A stretch of DNA of 64,000 nt from Nafulsella turpanensis ZLM-10 (GTDB taxonomy: Bacteria > Bacteroidota > Bacteroidia > Cytophagales > Cyclobacteriaceae): positions 62,001 through 126,000 of the forward strand of contig NZ_ANNU01000010.1 of NCBI RefSeq assembly GCF_000346615.1, in the 5' to 3' direction. Shown piece by piece: positions 2,941 through 49,140 of this stretch (position 1 is its first letter; each line of letters starts with the position of its first letter). The notes beneath the pieces were generated by a model, which had not been told where the DNA came from, ran no database searches, and worked only from the letters and a program-made list of their open reading frames with translations. The translations under genes were made by a program, and so were the position numbers.

Positions 2941-2948
2941 TCAGACCT

Positions 2949-3024
2949 GAGATGGGAGACATGAGACAAGAGATAAGCAATATAAGTAGCTTGAAAAAAT
3001 CTCATGTCCCACGTCTCACATCTC
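2949..3024. repeat. Imperfect inverted repeat with 25-bp arms between convergent genes
   Basis: Arms at 2949-2973 and 3000-3024 pair at 21 of 25 positions and are built from reiterated GAGA/GACATGAGA-like units. The right arm runs into the coding end of the flippase-like gene and supplies its last codons and stop. No T-tract follows either arm, so it is not a standard intrinsic terminator, although it could still end transcription from both sides. Its composition of short reiterated units recalls the flanks of the four-helix-bundle element at 45971-46393. Confidence 0.75.
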
Positions 3025-39663: not shown

Positions 39664-41427
39664 TTACTCCAGCACCTCACTCACTTCGCCGCAGTGCAGC
39701 ATGCTTTCGCCGTAATAAGGATTCAGTATCTCCTCTTCATTTGATAGCCAGAAGGCCCCCTGGTCATTATTCGCCATAGGGCAAAACTGTACATACATCC
39801 CCCCTGACACCAGCTCTTTCTGTTGTGCGAGCTCAATCATGTGGTTACTCAGGAAAAAGAAGGTTTCGCGCTGCGCTTCGAGTGTGGGGGCTTTGGCAAG
39901 GCGAAGTGCATAGGCCTGTGCCTTTTCAGCATCTTCCACCGCCTGCAGCCTTTCTGCTAAAACAGCGGCCTGTTCCTGCGCAGCCTCCTTATCTGAGGCG
40001 ACCAGGGCATTTTTAAGCAGCAGGTACACCTCATAGGCCGGGCCAAAAGCCTCTTCTGCAAAAACCGGTGGCCCTGCAATAGGGTCGTGGGCATCGAGCA
40101 GCGCCTTTCCTTCCGGCTCCACGGCACCGGCCAGCGGATCGCCGCCTTTTTTCAGCACAAACTCGCTGTAAAGCAGGTAAGCGCCATTTACCACCACCCG
40201 CTCGCCCGGCTCCACTCCGCTCAGGAGCGCAATACGGTCCGGCTCTTCCATACCCGTCTCTACAGGCCGGGCCAGGTAAGTGCTGTCGCTGGTCTGCAAC
40301 CACACATGAGCACCGCTGGCATCGCGAATAACGGCCTGCGTGGGCACGCTTACCCCTTCGGCCTCTCCGCTTTCCAGCCACACACTCGCCTGCATTCCCG
40401 GGAAAAATCTTTCCGCAGGGTTAGGAATCTCTACCCGCATGCTTACAATCTGGCTGGTCCCTCTCAATTCAGGACTGATAAAGCTTACAATACCTGTAAC
40501 CGGCGACTTTTCAAAACCCGCTACACTTACTTTTACCTCCTCGCCAATTTCTACCATGTTGCTTTCTTCCGGATAAAGCTCCGCCTCTACCCATAAGGTG
40601 TCGAGCCGGCCAATTGTATAAAGCTTTGCTCCTTCGGGCAGGTAAATACCTTCGGTGGCCGCAATTTCAGTAACTATGCCCGATACGGGCGCTACAAATG
40701 TAAAGCTGGCTTTTGGCTCCTTCTGCGCCTCCAGCCGCGCTATTTGTGCGTCTGTCATGCCATAAAGCTTCAGTTTTCGCCGGGCCGATTCAAGAAAACC
40801 GGCAAAGCGTGGCTCCTCCGTTCCCAGCTGAAGGTTTTGTTCCAGCGCCAGCAGATACTCCTGCTGATAGGTAAGCAGCTCCTCACTGTAAATCTCATAC
40901 AGGGGCTGGCCTGCCTGTATGCGCTGGCCGGTTTCCTTCACATACAGACGCTCGATCCGGCCGGGAACCCGGGTAGCCACTATTTCTTTCTCTTCTTTGT
41001 TTTCCGTTATTTCGGCATTCAGCCGTACTCTATTGTCGATGCTACCTAAACCAACAGGCTTGCTCACAATATTCCCCAGCAGTTTTTGGCGTTCGCTCAG
41101 CATAATTTCCGGCGAGGCCTCATCGCCCCTGGAAAAAGGCACCAGGTCCATTGCGCAAATAGGGCAAATTCCCGGATCTGGCTGCACCACCTGCGGATGC
41201 ATGGGGCAGGTATAGGCAACATCCGCCACCACCCCGGCCTTATCATGCTCTTCCGGGTTGCTGCAGGCAGCAAGGGTTAGGAGCAGTAAAGTAATTAGCC
41301 AGCCAGAAGAGGCAGACTTCCTCAGGAATGCCCGTATCCTCCAGGCTATTTGTATACTTATTTTTCTATTCCAATTCATCTGTATCTTATTTTCAAGAGG
41401 TTCAAAAGTAAATAGCAGGCAGGGCAC
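39664..41427 (-). CDS. CusB-like RND adaptor with N-terminal heavy-metal-binding and C-terminal DUF3347 domains
   Basis: 587 aa, longer than a typical CusB (about 400-450) because of two extra modules. The lipoprotein signal ends in LTLAACSN, and the best start may be the internal ATG at 41379 (MNWNRK). A heavy-metal-binding motif follows, YTCPMHPQVVQP and CPICAMDLVPF (Ala where Gly is usual). Next comes the membrane-fusion core with VPGRIERLYVKETGQRIQAG and FVAPVSGIVTEI. The C-terminal ~110 residues form a DUF3347-like domain with FCPMANND, ILNPYYGESM and HCGE. It should link CusA to the outer-membrane channel and bind Cu(I)/Ag(I). The next gene upstream is a second adaptor, 5 bp away. Confidence 0.92.
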   Translation of the reverse strand: MPCLLFTFEPLENKIQMNWNRKISIQIAWRIRAFLRKSASSGWLITLLLLTLAACSNPEEHDKAGVVADVAYTCPMHPQVVQPDPGICPICAMDLVPFSRGDEASPEIMLSERQKLLGNIVSKPVGLGSIDNRVRLNAEITENKEEKEIVATRVPGRIERLYVKETGQRIQAGQPLYEIYSEELLTYQQEYLLALEQNLQLGTEEPRFAGFLESARRKLKLYGMTDAQIARLEAQKEPKASFTFVAPVSGIVTEIAATEGIYLPEGAKLYTIGRLDTLWVEAELYPEESNMVEIGEEVKVSVAGFEKSPVTGIVSFISPELRGTSQIVSMRVEIPNPAERFFPGMQASVWLESGEAEGVSVPTQAVIRDASGAHVWLQTSDSTYLARPVETGMEEPDRIALLSGVEPGERVVVNGAYLLYSEFVLKKGGDPLAGAVEPEGKALLDAHDPIAGPPVFAEEAFGPAYEVYLLLKNALVASDKEAAQEQAAVLAERLQAVEDAEKAQAYALRLAKAPTLEAQRETFFFLSNHMIELAQQKELVSGGMYVQFCPMANNDQGAFWLSNEEEILNPYYGESMLHCGEVSEVLE

Positions 41428-41432
41428 CTTTC

Positions 41433-42791
41433 CTAATCCTCCACCTTTACAAAACTTTCGCTGTCGACCATAAACTGGGCGTTATAGGCAATGGCTTCAT
41501 CGGCCGAAAGCCCTTCCAGTACCTGAACCATTCCTTCTGTTTGAATACCAGCCTCCACTTCTTTTGGCCTGAATACATTCTCCGCTACCTCCACAAACAC
41601 CAGCCGGTGGTTACCCAGGTCGAGCACAGCAAGTTCCGGCACCCAGAGGCTGCGTTCAGTGGTGGCAGTAATCTCCCCTTCTACCAGCTGCCCTACCCGG
41701 ACCGGAAGCTCAGCTCCGGCCACATAGGCTCGTACTTTCACAAAGCGCTCTCCTTCATTGAAGAAGGGCTGCACAAAATCGACTCTTGCGGCTAGCTGCT
41801 GGCTTTCCTGCGGCCCCCAGGATATTTCGACAGGTGCACCCGCCTCAATTTGCGAGGCTCCATCTGCATACACATTAAACTCCGCCCACAGCCGGGAGGG
41901 ATCAACCACCCGAAAGAGCGGCTGGCCTTTTTCTACATACATTCCTTCGCGAATGGTGAGTTCCTGCGGAACATCCTGAACGGAAGGAGCGGCCCCGGCC
42001 GATGCCTGCATTCCACCCATACCACCACCGGCAGCAGCTCTTTTATTGGCCGATGGCCTTCCCGGAGGAGCGGTAGACTCCAGCACGTAACCATCGTAAG
42101 GGCTGTAAACAGCCACTGAATTCTGTACCTCCCTGTTTTGTACCAGCTGCTCTATCTGCCCATCACTCAGGCCCAGGAGGCGCAGTTGCCGTATGGCAGC
42201 GGCAATAAGTTGTTCATTATCGGGGTCTTCGCGCAGCAGAAAAAGCAGCTCCCGCTGGCTGGTAAGCAGCTCCGGGCTGTATATCTCCATTAGCTTCTGC
42301 CCTTTCCGGACAGGCTGGAAATTGTACTCCACATACAGCTCTTCTATTCGGCCACCAAAGCGGGCCGGAATGGTGTACTCATTCCGGGTATCGTAGCTAA
42401 TCTTTCCTGGAATGGTGGTGGTAACAGATTTCCGCTCCCATACAGGCTGAACGGTTTCAATCCTGGATACGATAGTGCCGGTAACCGGCTTCAGCAGGAA
42501 ATCCAGTTCTTCTGTCAGCTCAAGGGGAGCTTCTGCGGTACTCTGCTGCGGTACCAGGTCCATTCCGCAGATAGGACAGGCACCCGGCTCGGGCGCTACC
42601 ACCTGGGGGTGCATCGGGCAGGTATAGGTCACCTCCTCTGCTATTTCGGCCTGCTCGTGCTCCCCCGCTCTACTGCAGGCAGTAAAGGAGAGCAACAGGA
42701 TAAGGAGCCATCCAAAGAAAGAAATACATCTTCCCGCTTCCGGCAGGCTATTTCTCCTCTTTATTGTTTTATGCTGAATCATCTTCTTCAA
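41433..42791 (-). CDS. CusB-like RND periplasmic adaptor with heavy-metal-binding domain
   Basis: 452 aa. A basic N terminus and hydrophobic segment end in SFTACSRAG, a lipobox. The metal-binding motif YTCPMHPQVVAP with CPICGMDLVPQ lies at about residues 55-80. The adaptor core follows: TIPGKISYDTRNEYTIPARF, GGRIEELYVEYNFQPVRKGQ, a helical hairpin, YSPYDGYVLE and the beta-barrel with VRVGQLVEGEI. A Gly/Met-rich insert (GGGMGGMQAS) lies between the hairpin and the barrel. It is the second adaptor in this operon. It is unknown whether the two form mixed hexamers or serve alternately. Confidence 0.93.
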   Translation of the reverse strand: MKKMIQHKTIKRRNSLPEAGRCISFFGWLLILLLSFTACSRAGEHEQAEIAEEVTYTCPMHPQVVAPEPGACPICGMDLVPQQSTAEAPLELTEELDFLLKPVTGTIVSRIETVQPVWERKSVTTTIPGKISYDTRNEYTIPARFGGRIEELYVEYNFQPVRKGQKLMEIYSPELLTSQRELLFLLREDPDNEQLIAAAIRQLRLLGLSDGQIEQLVQNREVQNSVAVYSPYDGYVLESTAPPGRPSANKRAAAGGGMGGMQASAGAAPSVQDVPQELTIREGMYVEKGQPLFRVVDPSRLWAEFNVYADGASQIEAGAPVEISWGPQESQQLAARVDFVQPFFNEGERFVKVRAYVAGAELPVRVGQLVEGEITATTERSLWVPELAVLDLGNHRLVFVEVAENVFRPKEVEAGIQTEGMVQVLEGLSADEAIAYNAQFMVDSESFVKVED

Positions 42792-42824: not shown

Positions 42825-44081
42825 CTAGCGCTCAAGCTCCTTTTCATAGGCAGCCAGGGTAACATAATAGCTTTCAAGCCGGTCCAGGTAATCCAAACGG
42901 GTGCTGCTCAAATCTTCCCAGGCATCAATTACCATGGGCAGCTCTCCGTTATTTTCTTCGTAGGCCAGCATTACCACCTCAAAATTCTTTTCGAGGGCCG
43001 GAATAATCTTTTGCTGATAATTCTGCAGCTGTTGCGCCAGTACTTCCAGCTCGATATGCATGGCGGCCAGCTCTGCCACTGCTTCATTCAGCATTACTTC
43101 CCGCTCCTTTTCCATGGCCTGTATTTCAAAGCCCATCCCTTTTACCTCTGCCTTATACCCACGGGAAGACCAGGGCGCAACAGGAATGCTCACCATGCCC
43201 ATAAGGGTAAACTGCTGCGGCATCATGCCACTATAGGACGACATATGCTCGAAGCGCAGACCAAAATCCGGCTTAGCTTCGGTACGTGCCAGCTCCTGGT
43301 TCAGCCGCATGCTTTCAATGCCGGTTTCAAGCGCCAGAATATCGCTACGCACTTCTGCCAGCTCCAGGGTATCCACTACAGGCACTAAACGGGCAGGCAA
43401 AGTAGTAATAACACCTGTGTCGATGAGGTAGTCGACGGTAGGCGGAATATCCATGAGCTTGTTTAGCAGGATATTTTTCTGCTCCTTTTCGCCGGCTATC
43501 ATCAATAGCATATTTTCCACTTCATAAAGCCTCCCTTCGGCTTCGTATATATTGCCGAGTGTTCCCTGTCCGTAAGGGTAGCGAATCTTTGCCAGCTTTT
43601 TCATGGTAATCATAATGCGCTGCATTTCCAGCAGCACCGCCTGCTTCTTCTCCAGTACCGCCCACTGATAGTAGGCTTTTTTGGCCGCTGCCCGCAGTTC
43701 ATTATAAGCAGCCAGGGCTCTTGCCTCCTCCACGGCAGCTTTAGAGCCCAGCCACTTCTCTTTGGCTCCTGTTTTAGCCGGATTCGGAATCTGCTGTTCC
43801 ACTGCCAGCATTAAGGAGCCTTTATTATCGGGCATAATATCTTCCTGAAATGGATAGGGAGTCATAAAAGTACCTGCTCCCGCCATAGGAGGCATCCAGG
43901 CATCCGCTCCTTCGGCATAAGCATCGAGGGCCGATACCCGCCGCTCGAATTGCTGCAGGAGAGGATGCTGACGACGAATTACCTGAAGTACGCTATCGAG
44001 CGAAAGCCTTTGCTGTGCAAAGACAGGCAAGCCGACAAAAAGCAAAAGGACTGCCGGCAGTATTTTAATGCTTAACTTCAT
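42825..44081 (-). CDS. TolC-family outer membrane protein (CusC-like role)
   Basis: 418 aa with a signal peptide cut near VFAQ. LSLDSVLQVIRRQHPLLQQ opens the first TolC repeat. Long helices follow (EKWLGSKAAVEEARALAAYN, LVPVVDTLELAEVRSDILAL). A Met/Pro-rich loop (MSSYSGMMPQQFTLMGM) is in keeping with copper transport. The start overlaps the 3' end of the CusA C-terminal half by 17 bp, so the two are translationally linked. It probably forms the outer-membrane channel for the Cus-like pump. Confidence 0.9.
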   Translation of the reverse strand: MKLSIKILPAVLLLFVGLPVFAQQRLSLDSVLQVIRRQHPLLQQFERRVSALDAYAEGADAWMPPMAGAGTFMTPYPFQEDIMPDNKGSLMLAVEQQIPNPAKTGAKEKWLGSKAAVEEARALAAYNELRAAAKKAYYQWAVLEKKQAVLLEMQRIMITMKKLAKIRYPYGQGTLGNIYEAEGRLYEVENMLLMIAGEKEQKNILLNKLMDIPPTVDYLIDTGVITTLPARLVPVVDTLELAEVRSDILALETGIESMRLNQELARTEAKPDFGLRFEHMSSYSGMMPQQFTLMGMVSIPVAPWSSRGYKAEVKGMGFEIQAMEKEREVMLNEAVAELAAMHIELEVLAQQLQNYQQKIIPALEKNFEVVMLAYEENNGELPMVIDAWEDLSSTRLDYLDRLESYYVTLAAYEKELER

Positions 44082-45957
44082 AGATATCGATTTTTCCTTT
44101 TCTCTTTAGTTCCCACTCTTTTACCATCTCAAACACCACCGGGGTTACCAGCAGAATATGGATGGAAGAGGTAAATACACCGCCAATCATAGGCAGTACA
44201 ATGGGCACCATTACATCGGTGCCCACTCCCGTTGCCCACAGCACCGGAATTAGACCGAAGAGCGCTACGGAAACCGTCATAATTTTCGGGCGCAGGCGCT
44301 TCGCTGCCCCTCTGAACACCCACTCGCGCAGGTCCTGAGGAGTAATACTTTCTTTTGAATTACCTTTTTCCTTCACCATCTGCTCCATCGCCTCATTCAG
44401 GTATACCACCATTACCATGGCCGTTTCTATTGCCAGACCAAAGAGGGCAATAAAACCGACTGCTACCGCCACCGAAAGGTTAATACCCCAGAAGTACACC
44501 AGGTACACCCCACCCACCAGGGCGAAGGGAATGGTTACCAGGTTAACAAAAGCCTCCTTCAGGGAATTGAAGGTGAAGTATAGAATGGCAAAAATAATCA
44601 GCAGCACCAGCGGGATAATCAGCTGCAGGGTTTGGGTGGCCCGTATCTGGTTCTCCCATTGCCCGCTCCATTCCAGGTAGTAACCTTCGGGCAGCTCCCC
44701 GTCCAGTGCATTCATCTTTTCAATGGCCTCCTCTACCGTGCTGCCCAGGTCGCGGTCGCGCACGTTAAAAAGCACGGCTCCCCGAAGCATGGCATTGTCG
44801 GAGGTAATCATGGGCGGGCCATCGGTAAAATAGATGTCGGCCACCTCCGACAGCGGAATGGTTTGCATGGTCGGCGTCTGAATGGGAATCCGCTTAATAC
44901 GCTCAATGCTGCTTCTGTAATCCTGCGCAAGTCGAACGCTCACGGCAAATCGCTCGCGCCCCTCGATGGTTTGAGTTGCCTGTACACCTCCGAGCGCAGC
45001 TTCCACCACCATATTCACTTCATCCACGCTAAGCCCGTAGCGACCAATCTGGTCCCGGCGTATATCCACCTCCAGGTATTTACCGCCGGTAATTGGCTCT
45101 ACATAGAGATCTTTTACACCGCTAATCCCTTCGAGCTGCTCTTTTACCTGCTCCGAAACCGCCGCAATGGTATCCAGGTTCTGACCAAAAACCTTCACCC
45201 CTACATCAGTACGGATGCCGGTGGCCAGCATATTGATGCGGTTAATGATGGGTTGCGTCCAGCCATTGACCACACCCGGAATCTGCAGCTTTGCATCCAG
45301 CTCCTGAATAATCCTTTCCTTGGTCATGCCTTCCCGCCACTCCGATTTTGGCTTGAGCATAATAATCGTTTCGATCATGCTCAGGGGCGAATTATCGGTA
45401 GCGGTACTGGCCCGGCCGGCCTTCCCAAGCACCTGATCCACTTCCGGCACAGAGGCAATAATCTTGTCCTGCACCTGTAAAATGCGCTTTACCTCTGAAT
45501 TAGATACACTGGGCAGCGTTACCGGCATAAACAGGATAGAGCCTTCATCGAGCGGCGGCATAAATTCAGTACCCAGGTTCAGCATCATGGGAATGGCGAT
45601 GGCCAACGCCAGAATATTCAGGCCGATAGTAGTTTTACGCCATTTCAGACACCAGCGCAGCACCGGCCCATACACCCGCTCCATCCAGCGATTCACCGGG
45701 TTTTTGGTATCGCCCTTAAACTTCCCCTTCAGCAGGTAGGAGATCAGCACCGGGGTAAGGGTAACCGCCACGATGGCATCGACAATCATAATAAAGGTTT
45801 TAGTCCAGGCCAGTGGGCTGAACAGCTTTCCTTCCTGCCCTGTGAGCAAAAACACCGGCAAAAAGGAGGCGATAATAATAACCGTGCTCCAAAACACCGA
45901 GGGGCCAACTTGTCGTGCTGCACTTTCTATGATTTTTAACCTTTTATTTTTGTCCAT
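44065..45957 (-). CDS. cusA: CusA-like metal RND pump, C-terminal part (TM5-TM12)
   Basis: 630 aa from ATG at 45957 (a TTG at 45972 would add five residues). It begins in the cytoplasmic loop before TM5 (ARQVGPSVFWSTVIIIASFL), continues through QEGKLFSPLAWTKTF, the second porter half and TM7-TM12. The three methionines that bind Cu(I)/Ag(I) in E. coli CusA have clear counterparts: LFMPVTLP, LSMIETI and RINMLATGI. The TM10 Glu is in LFGLAIETAMVM. The N-terminal part is encoded at 46360-47652 in the same frame. The two are separated by a four-helix-bundle ORF bounded by inverted repeats. No decay is visible in this half. Confidence 0.93.
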   Translation of the reverse strand: MDKNKRLKIIESAARQVGPSVFWSTVIIIASFLPVFLLTGQEGKLFSPLAWTKTFIMIVDAIVAVTLTPVLISYLLKGKFKGDTKNPVNRWMERVYGPVLRWCLKWRKTTIGLNILALAIAIPMMLNLGTEFMPPLDEGSILFMPVTLPSVSNSEVKRILQVQDKIIASVPEVDQVLGKAGRASTATDNSPLSMIETIIMLKPKSEWREGMTKERIIQELDAKLQIPGVVNGWTQPIINRINMLATGIRTDVGVKVFGQNLDTIAAVSEQVKEQLEGISGVKDLYVEPITGGKYLEVDIRRDQIGRYGLSVDEVNMVVEAALGGVQATQTIEGRERFAVSVRLAQDYRSSIERIKRIPIQTPTMQTIPLSEVADIYFTDGPPMITSDNAMLRGAVLFNVRDRDLGSTVEEAIEKMNALDGELPEGYYLEWSGQWENQIRATQTLQLIIPLVLLIIFAILYFTFNSLKEAFVNLVTIPFALVGGVYLVYFWGINLSVAVAVGFIALFGLAIETAMVMVVYLNEAMEQMVKEKGNSKESITPQDLREWVFRGAAKRLRPKIMTVSVALFGLIPVLWATGVGTDVMVPIVLPMIGGVFTSSIHILLVTPVVFEMVKEWELKRKGKIDIYEVKH

Positions 45958-45970
45958 TTTATTAGCTCTC

Positions 45971-46003
45971 AATTAAGAATGTAGAATGAAAAATGAAGAA
46001 TTA
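45971..46003 (-). repeat. Inverted repeat arm, downstream flank of the four-helix-bundle element
   Basis: AT-rich arm made of reiterated (A/G)AATG/TTAAGAAT units. Its 31-bp core pairs with the arm at 46362-46392 at 27 of 31 positions. It contains the stop codon of the four-helix-bundle ORF and ends 14 bases before the ATG of the CusA C-terminal part. Confidence 0.85.
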
Positions 46004-46363
46004 GTTGGCCCTTGCCGACTTTAGAATGGCTATCAGAATCTTCTTTAGTTCTTCCGCATCGGCGTATAAAGATTGAAATTGCTTTTCATCCAGAATACCG
46101 GTGGCCTTCAGGAGGCGAAGCCAGTAAAGTGTTTCTCTAATTTCTTTGTAAGCAATGCCCATTTTGGCAGTAAAGTCTTTTTTTGAAAACCCTCCTATGG
46201 CTTCTTCAATATTGGCTCCCACAGAAGTACCGCTCCTGAGCAACTGTTTCGACAGTTCGTACTCCTGCTTTTCTTTTTTAAGCCATTTATATAGCTGAAC
46301 CACCCGAACTGCAAAAGCAAAAGATTTTTCTGCAATAACATTTTCCTTTCCCTCGCCCATCAT
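46001..46363 (-). CDS. Four-helix-bundle protein, 23S rRNA intervening-sequence (S23/IVP) family
   Basis: 120 aa. The family signature is clear: KSFAFAVRVVQLYKWLKKEK, then LSKQLLRSGTSVGANIEEA, FTAKMGIAYKEIRETLYWLR and LLKATGILDE. Family members are encoded inside intervening sequences of some bacterial 23S rRNA genes and also occur as free ORFs in Bacteroidota. Their biochemical role is not established. They are related in fold to the Avd proteins of diversity-generating retroelements. Here the ORF interrupts cusA. Its ATG overlaps the stop of the N-terminal half (ATGA, 46360-46363), and both ends lie in the arms of a 31-bp inverted repeat. Confidence 0.93.
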   Translation of the reverse strand: MMGEGKENVIAEKSFAFAVRVVQLYKWLKKEKQEYELSKQLLRSGTSVGANIEEAIGGFSKKDFTAKMGIAYKEIRETLYWLRLLKATGILDEKQFQSLYADAEELKKILIAILKSARAN

Positions 46364-47652
46364 TCTTCATTTTTAATTCTTAATTCTTCATTTGGTGACA
46401 CTTCAGCTAACCGCCTGTAGGCATTCTCCACCATTACGATGGCATCGTCGACAATTACGCCTATGGAGAGGGCGATGCCGGTGAGGGACATGATGTTGGA
46501 AGAGATGTCGAAGGCATTGAGCAGGATAAAACCAATGGCAATGGATAGCGGCAGCTGAATAAGAATGATGAAGGCACTGCGCCAGTGGAAAAGGAAGATG
46601 ATGACAATAATCGAAGCGACAATCATTTCCTCTATCAGTGTTTTCTTAACAGAGTCAATGGATTCATTGATAAGACCGCTGCGGTCGTATACGATATTGA
46701 ACTCTACTCCTTTTGGCAGTCCCAGAGCTACCTCTTCCATTTTTTCCTTTACATTCTCTATCACCTCATCGGCATTTTCTCCGTAGCGCATTACCACAAT
46801 ACCGCCTACCACTTCGCCTTCGCCATTGAGGTCGAATATACCCAAGCGGCTCTCGCCCGATAGCTGCACGCTCCCTACATCCTGCACCCTTACAGGCACA
46901 GCGCCCTGGATGGCTACGGGTATAAGGGCAATATCTTCCATACTCTCGATATAACCCGATGTTTTAATGATATAGCCGATGTCGCTCATTTCGAACTTAC
47001 GGCCACCTGCTTCATTATTATTGGCCCGTACGGCGGCAATTACCTCCGGCACGGAAAGCTGGTAATAGCTGAGCTTATTAGGGTCGAGCGAAATCTCATA
47101 CTGCTTCACCTGTCCACCAAAAGAGGCTATCTCGCTCACGCCAGGCACATTCTGGAGTGCGAATTTTACATACCAGTCCTGTATGGCCCGCTGCTCGCCC
47201 AGGTCAAGCCCCGGAGCATCGAGTGTATACCACAGGATATGCCCCACACCGGTTCCGTCGGGGCCCAGCGTAGGGCTGACGCCTTCCGGCAGCAGCTCAT
47301 CGACCGAGCTCAGGCGCTCCAGCACCCGCTGGCGAGCCCAGTAGATGTCGGTATCATCTTCAAAAATGACATAAATAAAGCTCATCCCGAACATGGAGGA
47401 GGCCCGTACATACTTTACCTCGGGGAGGCCCTGCAAATTAGTGACCAGTGGATAGGTAACCTGGTCTTCGATAATTTGCGGGCTACGCCCCATCCACTCG
47501 GTAAAGATGATGACCTGGTTTTCGGACAAATCCGGAATGGCATCAATTTTATTGGTTTGCACGGAATACACGCCCCAGCCAAATAAGCCGGCGGCTATTA
47601 TCAGTACCATTACCCGGTTCCGGAGGGAATAGGATATGAGTTTCTCAATCAT
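46360..47652 (-). CDS. cusA: CusA-like metal RND pump, N-terminal part (TM1-TM4)
   Basis: 430 aa. TM1 (VMVLIIAAGLFGWGVYS), the first porter domain with MFGMSFIYVIFEDDTDIYWAR, then TM2-TM4 ending with the proton-relay pair in SIGVIVDDAIVMVENAYRRL. The native sequence stops around AEVSPN. The last codons (EELRIKNEE and TGA) come from the inverted repeat of the inserted element. Reading resumes in the same frame at the C-terminal part, 387 bases further on. The gene is first in the operon order N-half, four-helix protein, C-half, TolC, adaptor, adaptor and DUF3347 lipoprotein. Confidence 0.93.
   Translation of the reverse strand: MIEKLISYSLRNRVMVLIIAAGLFGWGVYSVQTNKIDAIPDLSENQVIIFTEWMGRSPQIIEDQVTYPLVTNLQGLPEVKYVRASSMFGMSFIYVIFEDDTDIYWARQRVLERLSSVDELLPEGVSPTLGPDGTGVGHILWYTLDAPGLDLGEQRAIQDWYVKFALQNVPGVSEIASFGGQVKQYEISLDPNKLSYYQLSVPEVIAAVRANNNEAGGRKFEMSDIGYIIKTSGYIESMEDIALIPVAIQGAVPVRVQDVGSVQLSGESRLGIFDLNGEGEVVGGIVVMRYGENADEVIENVKEKMEEVALGLPKGVEFNIVYDRSGLINESIDSVKKTLIEEMIVASIIVIIFLFHWRSAFIILIQLPLSIAIGFILLNAFDISSNIMSLTGIALSIGVIVDDAIVMVENAYRRLAEVSPNEELRIKNEE
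46362..46393 (-). repeat. Inverted repeat arm, upstream flank of the four-helix-bundle element
   Basis: Read on the minus strand the arm is made of AATGAAGAATTAAGAATT-type units. It encodes the last residues of the CusA N-terminal half and overlaps the start of the four-helix ORF. In the mRNA it can pair with the arm at 45971-46003 to enclose the whole ORF in one stem-loop. Confidence 0.85.
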
Positions 47653-47783
47653 CTGATGAAAGTAAAATGGATAGAAAGTATGGCGGAGCAGCTGCTTAGC
47701 TTAAGAAGCTTATTTTTGCTCAGGCCAGACAAAGAATACCTGTGCAGCTCTGCGGGAGCTGTTCAGACAAAGAAAAAGAAATG

Positions 47784-48212
47784 CTATAAAAGGAAAGATT
47801 GCACGAAAACGGGGATATCGCGCGCAATAGGAGGTTGCTGATAGACCTCCGGAATTACCTCAGCAGGGGGCGCTTCCTCTAAAAGAGGAAGGATAAATGT
47901 ATAAGCCAGTGCGATCAACTTCAGCTCTGGTTTGGCAATTTTTACGGCTGCCTGTCCCACCGTTTCATCGTGCTGTTCAAGCTGGTAACTATGGTTTTCG
48001 CAGCAGGGCATGGCCGGCTCCTCTGCTGCCTGCTCACTGCTATGGCAGGATGGAAGCAACTGAGCCTTCATCGGGCACTCTTCGGCCTGGCTGTAAAAAG
48101 CAAAATCCTGCCACTCGCCTGCACATAAATGTGCCTGCACACTAAAGCCTGCTGCTGTAAACAACATTAAAAGCGCAAGACATAAGGATGATATGGAACG
48201 GACCTGCTTCAA
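47784..48212 (-). CDS. HYC_CC_PP-type small exported protein of metal-efflux loci
   Basis: 142 aa. A signal peptide (SLCLALLMLFTAAGFSVQA) is followed by HLCAG, ECPMKAQLLPSCHSS and MPCCENHSYQLEQHDE, giving a set of His, Cys and Met residues. A second hydrophobic segment (ALAYTFILPLL) precedes a Pro-rich PPAEVIPEVYQQPPIARDIP end. The ordered H, C, CC and PP residues match the HYC_CC_PP family of Bacteroidota, which is found next to heavy-metal efflux genes. It lies 131 bp upstream of the CusA N-terminal half on the same strand and may be the first gene of the operon. A metal-binding role is inferred. Confidence 0.85.
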   Translation of the reverse strand: MKQVRSISSLCLALLMLFTAAGFSVQAHLCAGEWQDFAFYSQAEECPMKAQLLPSCHSSEQAAEEPAMPCCENHSYQLEQHDETVGQAAVKIAKPELKLIALAYTFILPLLEEAPPAEVIPEVYQQPPIARDIPVFVQSFLL

Positions 48213-48405
48213 ACTAAATGATTACTCCACAAAGATAGGGAGCATAAATTAATTTTCTTTTCACAATCATGAAAGAATTGTATGAAATTATAACGTCTGT
48301 ACCTAAACATTTGAACAACTGTTCCTCAAGCTACCTTAAGAAGGCCTTTTTGCTCAAAAATTGTCTTTTTTTGTTAAATTACCTCCAGGTAAAAGTAAAA
48401 AGCAA

Positions 48406-49140
48406 GTGAAAACAATTAACTCTCTCCCCCTATTCCTCTTTCTGCTGATGGCCTGCAGTGCGCCTGATGCGGCTAATTCCGAAACAGATACAATAGAAAT
48501 GGAAGAAACTGATAATGTACCTACTGGCTGGACCCCACTTTTTAATGGCAACTCCCTCGAAGGCTGGCATTCCTGGGGTAAAGACAGCGCCGGAAGTGCC
48601 TGGAAAGTCGAAGAGGGAGTACTCTTCCTGGATGCTTCGGAAGACGGTTATGAAGGCGGTGATTTAGTTAGCAACCGAAGCTTTGGTGCTTTCCACCTGA
48701 AGCTGGACTGGAAGATATCGGAGGGCGGGAATAGCGGTATTTTGTTTTATGCGCAGGAAGACAGCAGCCGCTATGATGCAACATGGCAATCGGGTCCCGA
48801 AATGCAGATTTTAGACAATGAAGGTCACCCCGACGGGCAAATTCACAAGCACCGCGCCGGCGATCTCTACGATCTCATCGCTGCCTCCGAAGAAGCGGCC
48901 AAACCGGTTGGAGAGTGGAACGAAGTGGAAATTATCAGCCAAAACGAACAGCTGGAGTTCTTCCTGAATGGAAAAAAAATTGTTTCTACCAGTCTCTGGG
49001 ATGAAAGCTGGCGCGAACTGATTGCCAACAGCAAGTTCAGTGAATTTCCGGGCTTTGGCACCTTCAAAAAAGGCAGAATTGCCCTGCAGGACCATGGCAA
49101 TAAAGTCTGGTTCCGGAACATCCGGATTAAAGCACTTTAG
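48406..49140 (+). CDS. DUF1080 (3-keto-disaccharide hydrolase-like) lipoprotein
   Basis: 244 aa from GTG at 48406, which places a short basic start before the lipoprotein signal LPLFLFLLMACSAP. A longer TTG start at 48361 is less likely. The domain is a concanavalin-like beta sandwich with WTPLFNGNSLEGWHSWGKD, FGAFHLKLDWKISEGGNSGI, LDNEGHPDGQIHKHRAGDLYD and NEVEIISQNEQLEFFLNGKK, the full set of DUF1080 hallmarks. The family includes 3-keto-glycoside hydrolases and many surface proteins of unknown function. It is divergent from the copper operon and has no evident metal link. Confidence 0.92.
   Translation: MKTINSLPLFLFLLMACSAPDAANSETDTIEMEETDNVPTGWTPLFNGNSLEGWHSWGKDSAGSAWKVEEGVLFLDASEDGYEGGDLVSNRSFGAFHLKLDWKISEGGNSGILFYAQEDSSRYDATWQSGPEMQILDNEGHPDGQIHKHRAGDLYDLIAASEEAAKPVGEWNEVEIISQNEQLEFFLNGKKIVSTSLWDESWRELIANSKFSEFPGFGTFKKGRIALQDHGNKVWFRNIRIKAL

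Follow-up and report, generated by a model that had tools for sequence, protein, structure and literature searches.

A stretch of 64,000 nucleotides (nt) from Nafulsella turpanensis ZLM-10, called the window here, contains two adjacent genes that together encode one CusA-type heavy-metal pump. Between the two halves lies a small open reading frame (ORF) of the S23/IVP four-helix-bundle family, enclosed by inverted arms. Genes of this family also lie in the intervening sequences (IVSs) of 23S rRNA, and the origin and mobility of these IVSs have been an open question since the 1990s. The question at this locus is whether cusA was intact until an IVS-type element broke it apart, as an earlier note on this DNA had claimed, or was already divided when the element arrived.

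Results

Comparison of orthologues indicates that the cusA split is older than the element and that the element filled an existing gap. When the C-half was searched against 149 genomes of the window's family, about 22 orthologous copies were found (54-86% identity), each with a separate C-half frame of 631-679 amino acids (aa). Distant paralogues (~35% identity) in the same family are single ORFs of 1040-1480 aa. In 15 of the own-family orthologues, which were read in detail, the N-half is a separate ORF just upstream in every case, and an IVP gene lies between the halves in two, the window and its congener. In named genomes, a scan found another 80 cusA loci with a C-half 70-86% identical, in Pontibacter, Rufibacter, Adhaeribacter, Chryseolinea, Larkinella, Chitinophaga, Pedobacter, Flavobacterium and others, and cusA is split in 80/80. 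The orthologous halves are often a few bases apart or overlapping (gaps of -77 to ~150 bases) and have their own stops and starts. The junction holds an IVP gene in only three of the 80, namely Cesiribacteraceae bacterium YIM B00369, Pontibacter sp. E15-1 and Pontibacter sp. Tf4; the first is the congener and the same genome as the own-family one, so its two counts are not independent. Since all 80 orthologues are split and only three have an IVP gene, the division of the gene is the ancestral state and the element arrived afterwards. The collinearity of the halves with CusA, their common reading frame and the position of the element between them would favour a gene broken by the element, but all orthologues are split, nearly all of them without the element, and the single-ORF homologues are the distant paralogues. 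A split caused by the element is therefore extremely improbable, and the earlier claim of an element entering and splitting an intact cusA is refuted for this clade by both the 80 named and the ~22 own-family orthologues. The same note had named, as an argument against an inserted element, close relatives with no uninterrupted form together with an absence of similarly flanked S23/IVP ORFs from the inside of other genes; the search for uninterrupted cusA orthologues without the insert found none, which comes near to that case.

The two-gene CusA divided at the loop between transmembrane helices (TM) 4 and 5 (44065-47652 in the window; loci L175-L254) was thus seen in all the named orthologues, which belong to several Bacteroidota classes. 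On this evidence, and with both halves under purifying selection, the pump is a conserved two-polypeptide CusA. Annotators should therefore not label the halves as pseudogenes or frameshifts.

The IVP genes in the cusA junctions of Pontibacter sp. E15-1 and Tf4 belong to a different subfamily (motif NYRAACRARS) and have their own period-8 arms. The cusA junction has therefore been occupied at least twice, independently. A second cusA copy of Pontibacter sp. Tf4 has a junction without IVP. Other Pontibacter cusA junctions have either repeats that resemble the arms, with no ORF, or a palindromic repeat of another kind. The latter (TGTCATTTCGAG ... AGATCTCTCC ... GTCGAGATGACA) was found in the gap between cusA-N and cusA-C at L178, L182, L183, L186 and L192, and the gap can be regarded as an insertion hotspot because this other repeat has also inserted there in several Pontibacter. 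Among the loci of the scan, L190 (Amaricoccus solimangrovi NZ_VFRP01000020.1) and L191 (Pontibacter mangrovi NZ_VFRQ01000015.1) have equal length and equal match coordinates, and a cross-contamination of the Amaricoccus assembly is therefore probable.

The N-half of the window pump (46360-47652, minus strand, 430 aa) comprises TM1-TM4 and the first porter part, and the C-half (44065-45957, minus strand) starts at an ATG at 45957 that was chosen by orthologue comparison. As a listed ORF the C-half is 44065-45972, with 635 aa from a TTG at 45972, inside the region adjoining the 3' arm. Both halves share one reading frame. They match consecutive parts of the TIGR00914 profile (positions 1-435 and 430-1040), and alignment to the solved CusA places them at residues 8-428 and 438-1045, collinear and with about 9 residues unmatched. 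The single polypeptide of TIGR00914 was found neither in the window nor in the 80 named orthologues. VDDAIVMVEN in TM4, the Glu of FIALFGLAIET and the Mets of ILFMPVTLP, PLSMIETI and NRINMLATG are all kept; in CusA these residues serve in proton relay and metal binding. These data agree with the earlier description of a CusA-type pump in two ORFs, broken at the TM4-TM5 loop, in one frame and with the TM4 Asp pair, the TM10 Glu and the three Met retained. Comparison of the window with the congener showed purifying selection on both halves, with a dN/dS of 0.066 in the C-half and proportions of nonsynonymous (pN) and synonymous (pS) differences of 0.094 and 0.750 in the N-half. The coding sequence for the end of the N-half (residues NEELRIKNEE) comes from the arm of the element. 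On the 3' side, the pump genes are followed by an outer-membrane factor gene and then by two membrane-fusion genes (minus strand). These are consecutive CusB-like genes (39664-41427 and 41433-42791), and the N-terminal segment of each carries the heavy-metal-binding motif CPMHP.

The element between the halves consists of the IVP ORF (46001-46363, minus strand, 120 codons) and two arms of 7-nt repeats. The 5' arm (46362-46392, minus strand) reads AATGAAGAATTAAGAATTAAAAATGAAGAAT on the minus strand, and the complementary 3' arm (45971-46001, minus strand) contains the IVP stop. The arms are 31 nt long, 27/31 (87%) complementary and 360 nt apart, with a z of 11.8 against dinucleotide shuffles. 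The IVP ORF matches PF05635 (E 6e-30; 104 bits, cut-off 33.8) and TIGR02436 (E 4e-32; 110.7 bits, cut-off 24), and its nearest solved structure is 2rld. Its reading as a 120-codon S23/IVP four-helix ORF within a 31-bp inverted repeat is thereby confirmed. The ORF is under purifying selection between the window and the congener (pN 0.073, pS 0.747). The transcript, which the earlier note had proposed to fold, is predicted to be closed by the paired arms, with a minimum free energy of -121.1 (z -2.93) that 0/100 shuffles equalled. IVP is the sole ORF between the arms, and the transposase that an insertion sequence carries between its ends was not found there. No Rfam match was found in window 43000-49000, and the flanks are the cusA halves and not an rRNA gene. 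The N-half stop overlaps the IVP start (ATGA) in the window, and a translational coupling between the halves had been suggested. The coupling was rejected as a designed feature because stop and start are ~90 nt apart in the nearest relative, the congener. The accessory protein Avd of diversity-generating retroelements was also considered for the IVP protein and rejected; the sole RVT_1 match in the genome is on another contig (C91), and none is near an IVP gene.

The same architecture is widespread. Among about 230 IVP loci from Bacteroidota, Cyanobacteria, Alphaproteobacteria and Gemmatimonadota, the gene typically lies between complementary arms of 7-nt repeats, with NAGNNNN in the 5' arm. 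IVP genes were found in 299/396 Bacteroidota genomes. There are six in the window genome, all of them between two other ORFs and with inverted arms directly outside the IVP ORF; the arm sequences are built of 7-nt units that differ from copy to copy, and those of one copy (L002) are weak. For 144 Bacteroidota loci, mismatched left and right flanks were used as the null. The arms were above 95% of the null in 84/144 loci (7 expected) and above 99% in 38 (1-2 expected), and none of the outer flanks of these loci was above the arm-pairing null. The same-base match at lag 7 was 0.395 and 0.404 in the two flanks, compared with ~0.28 at other lags, and further peaks lay at 14 and 21. This periodicity was absent from the outer flanks and from the coding sequence of IVP. 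The best period was 7 in 58 and 8 in 9 of the 73 clear arms. A dependence of arm period on IVP subfamily was rejected, as both periods occur in subfamily A. Cyanobacterial arms are of the types (TAGGGAG)n, (CAGGGAA)n and (CAGGTGA)n, and those of Gemmatirosa have period 8. Heptad arms were present in 11/13 alphaproteobacterial loci, and the two loci without them are the two weakest protein matches.

Two of the loci outside Bacteroidota are bona fide 23S IVSs by Rfam, L325 in Azospirillum lipoferum and L337 in an alphaproteobacterium. The sequence around the L325 insert appears to resemble that of helix 45 in E. coli. The arms of both IVSs are 7-nt repeats, for example CAGAGGG CAGAAAC CAGAGGT CAGAGAT CAGAAAT CAGATAT. 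For the IVS of Coxiella burnetii, GACAGAT has been reported in three tandem copies at the RNase III site, upstream of the S23 ORF (PMC4990558). The IVS-type architecture proposed for the window element is therefore well founded.

The arms co-vary. Where different genomes have an IVP gene at the same junction, own arms pair better than swapped arms, with a permutation p of 5e-5 in the two largest groups, 0.006-0.02 in four others and 0.085 in one group of four loci. The arms also have a fixed polarity. The ratio of AG to CT in the 5' arm units is 391:68 where IVP is co-oriented with both neighbours and 57:11 where it is antisense to both, the latter class including two 23S IVSs with spurious neighbour ORFs. 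The polarity goes with the IVP ORF, also where this is antisense to the host genes.

These data bear on the possibility that the arms act in mRNA, where the paired arms would be a substrate of RNase III, as those of 23S IVSs are, and the cut would part the pump cistrons or adjust their expression. RNase III cutting has been demonstrated for a 23S IVS (PMC4990558), and the arms close the predicted fold at the window locus. IVP is co-oriented with both neighbours in 126/138 loci of a first set and 39/55 of a second, compared with 17/42 gene triples in the window; the first set was drawn from the top-scoring matches, in which recurrent junctions are over-represented, and the second therefore comes closer to the true rate. 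On the other hand, an RNA stem under selection should tolerate G.U but not A.C mismatches, and no excess of G.U was found in the arms of 148 loci (133 G.U, 139 A.C), as expected if pairing is kept at the DNA level or renewed by arm copying. Antisense elements keep the arm polarity relative to IVP, the Nostoc IVP gene between nrdB and nrdA is antisense, and at the era|der junction the IVP genes of L265 and L262 face in opposite directions. The similar G.U and A.C counts, taken with the antisense copies, therefore make intrinsic DNA-level ends more likely than an mRNA-processing device, and an action of the arms in mRNA is an unlikely though serious alternative.

The arms might instead be tandem repeats from polymerase slippage that are kept complementary by template switching, with IVP as a hitchhiker. 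Heptanucleotide repeats are common in bacteria and slippage has been proposed for them (discussed in PMC4679880), and the arm-like repeats without ORF in Pontibacter junctions would fit this explanation. So would a small heptad hairpin without an ORF in the window (2943-2966 / 3000-3023), which follows an ndk-like gene (stop 2940) and precedes a convergent gene; it is possibly a solo or decayed form of the arms. However, a de novo scan for inverted arms with periods of 5-11, blind to IVP positions, gave five hits in 463 kb of the window's genome (the window and 20 stretches chosen partly around IVP genes). All five are of period 7 and each encloses an IVP ORF, and no long arms of periods 5, 6 or 8-11 were found. 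Slippage also leaves the fixed polarity of the arms relative to the IVP ORF unaccounted for, and we regard it as less probable than an action in mRNA.

IVP genes recur at certain junctions, namely fadB|thiolase (26 loci, and 6 more upstream of thiolase), thiolase|acyl-CoA dehydrogenase (22) and sucB|lpd (13). At sucB|lpd, the IVP of the window genome is of a different lineage from 11/13, which, like the two orientations at era|der, speaks for independent occupation of one junction. In these junctions and in the loci checked with Pfam the flanks are distinct genes, and cusA is the sole case among them with flanks from one protein, because this gene was already split before the element arrived. 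The earlier suggestion that insertion into genes could be a general strategy of such elements holds in that they are very common outside rRNA, but where flanks were examined they lie between genes and not inside them. Several other contexts were observed. Plasmids of Pseudanabaena (L316) and Anabaena (L322) have the IVP gene between cas6 and cas4, and in the former a long AAAAGCT-type heptad array flanks it. On a Nostoc plasmid (L317), IVP lies antisense between the genes for the beta and alpha subunits of ribonucleotide reductase. Window-type IVP genes were also seen in metal-transport operons: at L257 the gene, for an IVP 64% identical, separates those of an RND pump and an outer-membrane factor, and at L258 it lies between two ABC-3 permease genes.

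The recurrent junctions, the purifying selection and the presence of IVP in most of the Bacteroidota genomes would also be expected of a useful host gene, for example an operon regulator, that certain junctions acquired repeatedly and then retained. Yet presence is patchy (3/80 at the cusA junction), the heptad-armed unit also occurs in 23S rRNA, and a regulator alone leaves the arms unexplained. The bias of the locus sample to best-scoring matches also favours recurrent junctions. We consider a host-gene role improbable, to about the same degree as arms acting in mRNA.

Discussion

The explanation that best joins these data is an ancestral two-gene CusA with a later insertion into the gap. 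The ancestral pump was encoded by an N-half gene (TM1-4) and a gene for the rest, and made as two polypeptides. A unit of ~420 bp, composed of a 5' arm (NAGNNNN)n, the S23/IVP four-helix-bundle ORF and a 3' arm (NNNNCTN)n, would then have entered the short pre-existing gap before the window species and the congener diverged. This insertion would have added a third cistron and replaced the last N-half residues without creating the split. Units of this kind may form one class in 23S rRNA helices, as the classical IVSs, and in gene junctions alike. Their arms would most likely be the element's own DNA ends, which are recognised or maintained as DNA, possibly with participation of IVP. The unit itself would most likely be a selfish insertion element that moves slowly and persists at sites where it does no harm. 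In the sense orientation the arms would be paired in RNA, which explains harmlessness in rRNA. The data show the ancestral split, the architecture of the unit, the period of 7, the co-variation and polarity of the arms, the purifying selection on the ORF and the independent occupation of the same junctions. We infer mobility because presence is patchy and junctions are repeatedly occupied, and likewise infer the DNA-level role of the arms and the role of IVP. Taken as a whole, this explanation is very probably correct. A wider proposal is that S23/IVP genes are the core of a previously unrecognised class of minimal mobile elements with inverted ends of 7-nt units (NAGNNNN), that IVP recognises or makes these ends, and that 23S IVSs are members that landed in rRNA while most members reside in operon junctions. 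We put this forward tentatively, as a possibility that falls somewhat short of probable.

Several observations weigh against an insertion element with DNA-level ends. The RNA of the window locus folds with paired arms, and the comparison of G.U with A.C, although good in numbers, was run without a working positive control. About 40% of the loci are below the 95% arm threshold, determined with a gap-poor method. Recent transposition was not seen. The copies in the window genome have diverged, and a search of ~200 loci gave no high-identity pair in which the arms match while the flanks differ; its one weak pair has a similarity that ends at the ORF and so carries no boundary information. No target-site duplication could be defined, because even the closest sites without the element have diverged too far. 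The purifying selection and the long retention at some junctions would also suit a host gene with a useful function.

S23/IVP proteins, 23S IVSs and heptanucleotide repeats were already known. Neither heptad arms around S23 genes outside rRNA nor a split CusA was found in the open-access literature, a scope that leaves out most subscription papers. The combination into one class, the predominance outside rRNA and the fixed arm polarity were likewise not found in that literature, which is weak evidence of novelty. An easily scored signature, period-7 inverted arms of fixed polarity around an S23/IVP gene, is present in rRNA and between genes in several phyla, and makes the origin and mobility of IVSs testable. 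They become a question about one element class and one small protein, with thousands of natural copies outside rRNA. A function-neutral explanation is also offered for many genes annotated as "four helix bundle protein" inside core operons.

Compared with heavy-metal RND pumps of the CusA/CzcA type (TIGR00914), the window pump has all key residues and, with the halves combined, the full length; what sets it apart is that two neighbouring genes encode it, with the break at the cytoplasmic TM4-TM5 loop, and that it belongs to a conserved clade of Bacteroidota with this arrangement. Like the 23S IVSs with an S23/IVP ORF, the window element has an S23 ORF of ~120 codons, complementary termini and arms of 7-nt repeats, but it lies between protein genes and not in rRNA, and is not required for the function of any RNA. 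By score, the window IVP is a clear member of PF05635 and TIGR02436, the proteins represented by 2rld from Bacteroides thetaiotaomicron, whereas these models cover the protein only, and the arms and the unit are outside them. Short inverted ends, small size and an intergenic position are shared with REP/RAYT and MITE-like elements; the heptad unit differs from these in having no transposase and in period-7 arm arrays that differ from copy to copy. The cyanobacterial STRR heptanucleotides and the TAACTGA repeats of Beggiatoaceae are also tandem 7-nt units, described as direct repeats without an ORF or an inverted partner (PMC4679880). Arms of the same kind occur at the cyanobacterial IVP loci, and we suggest a link between these repeats and the IVP units.

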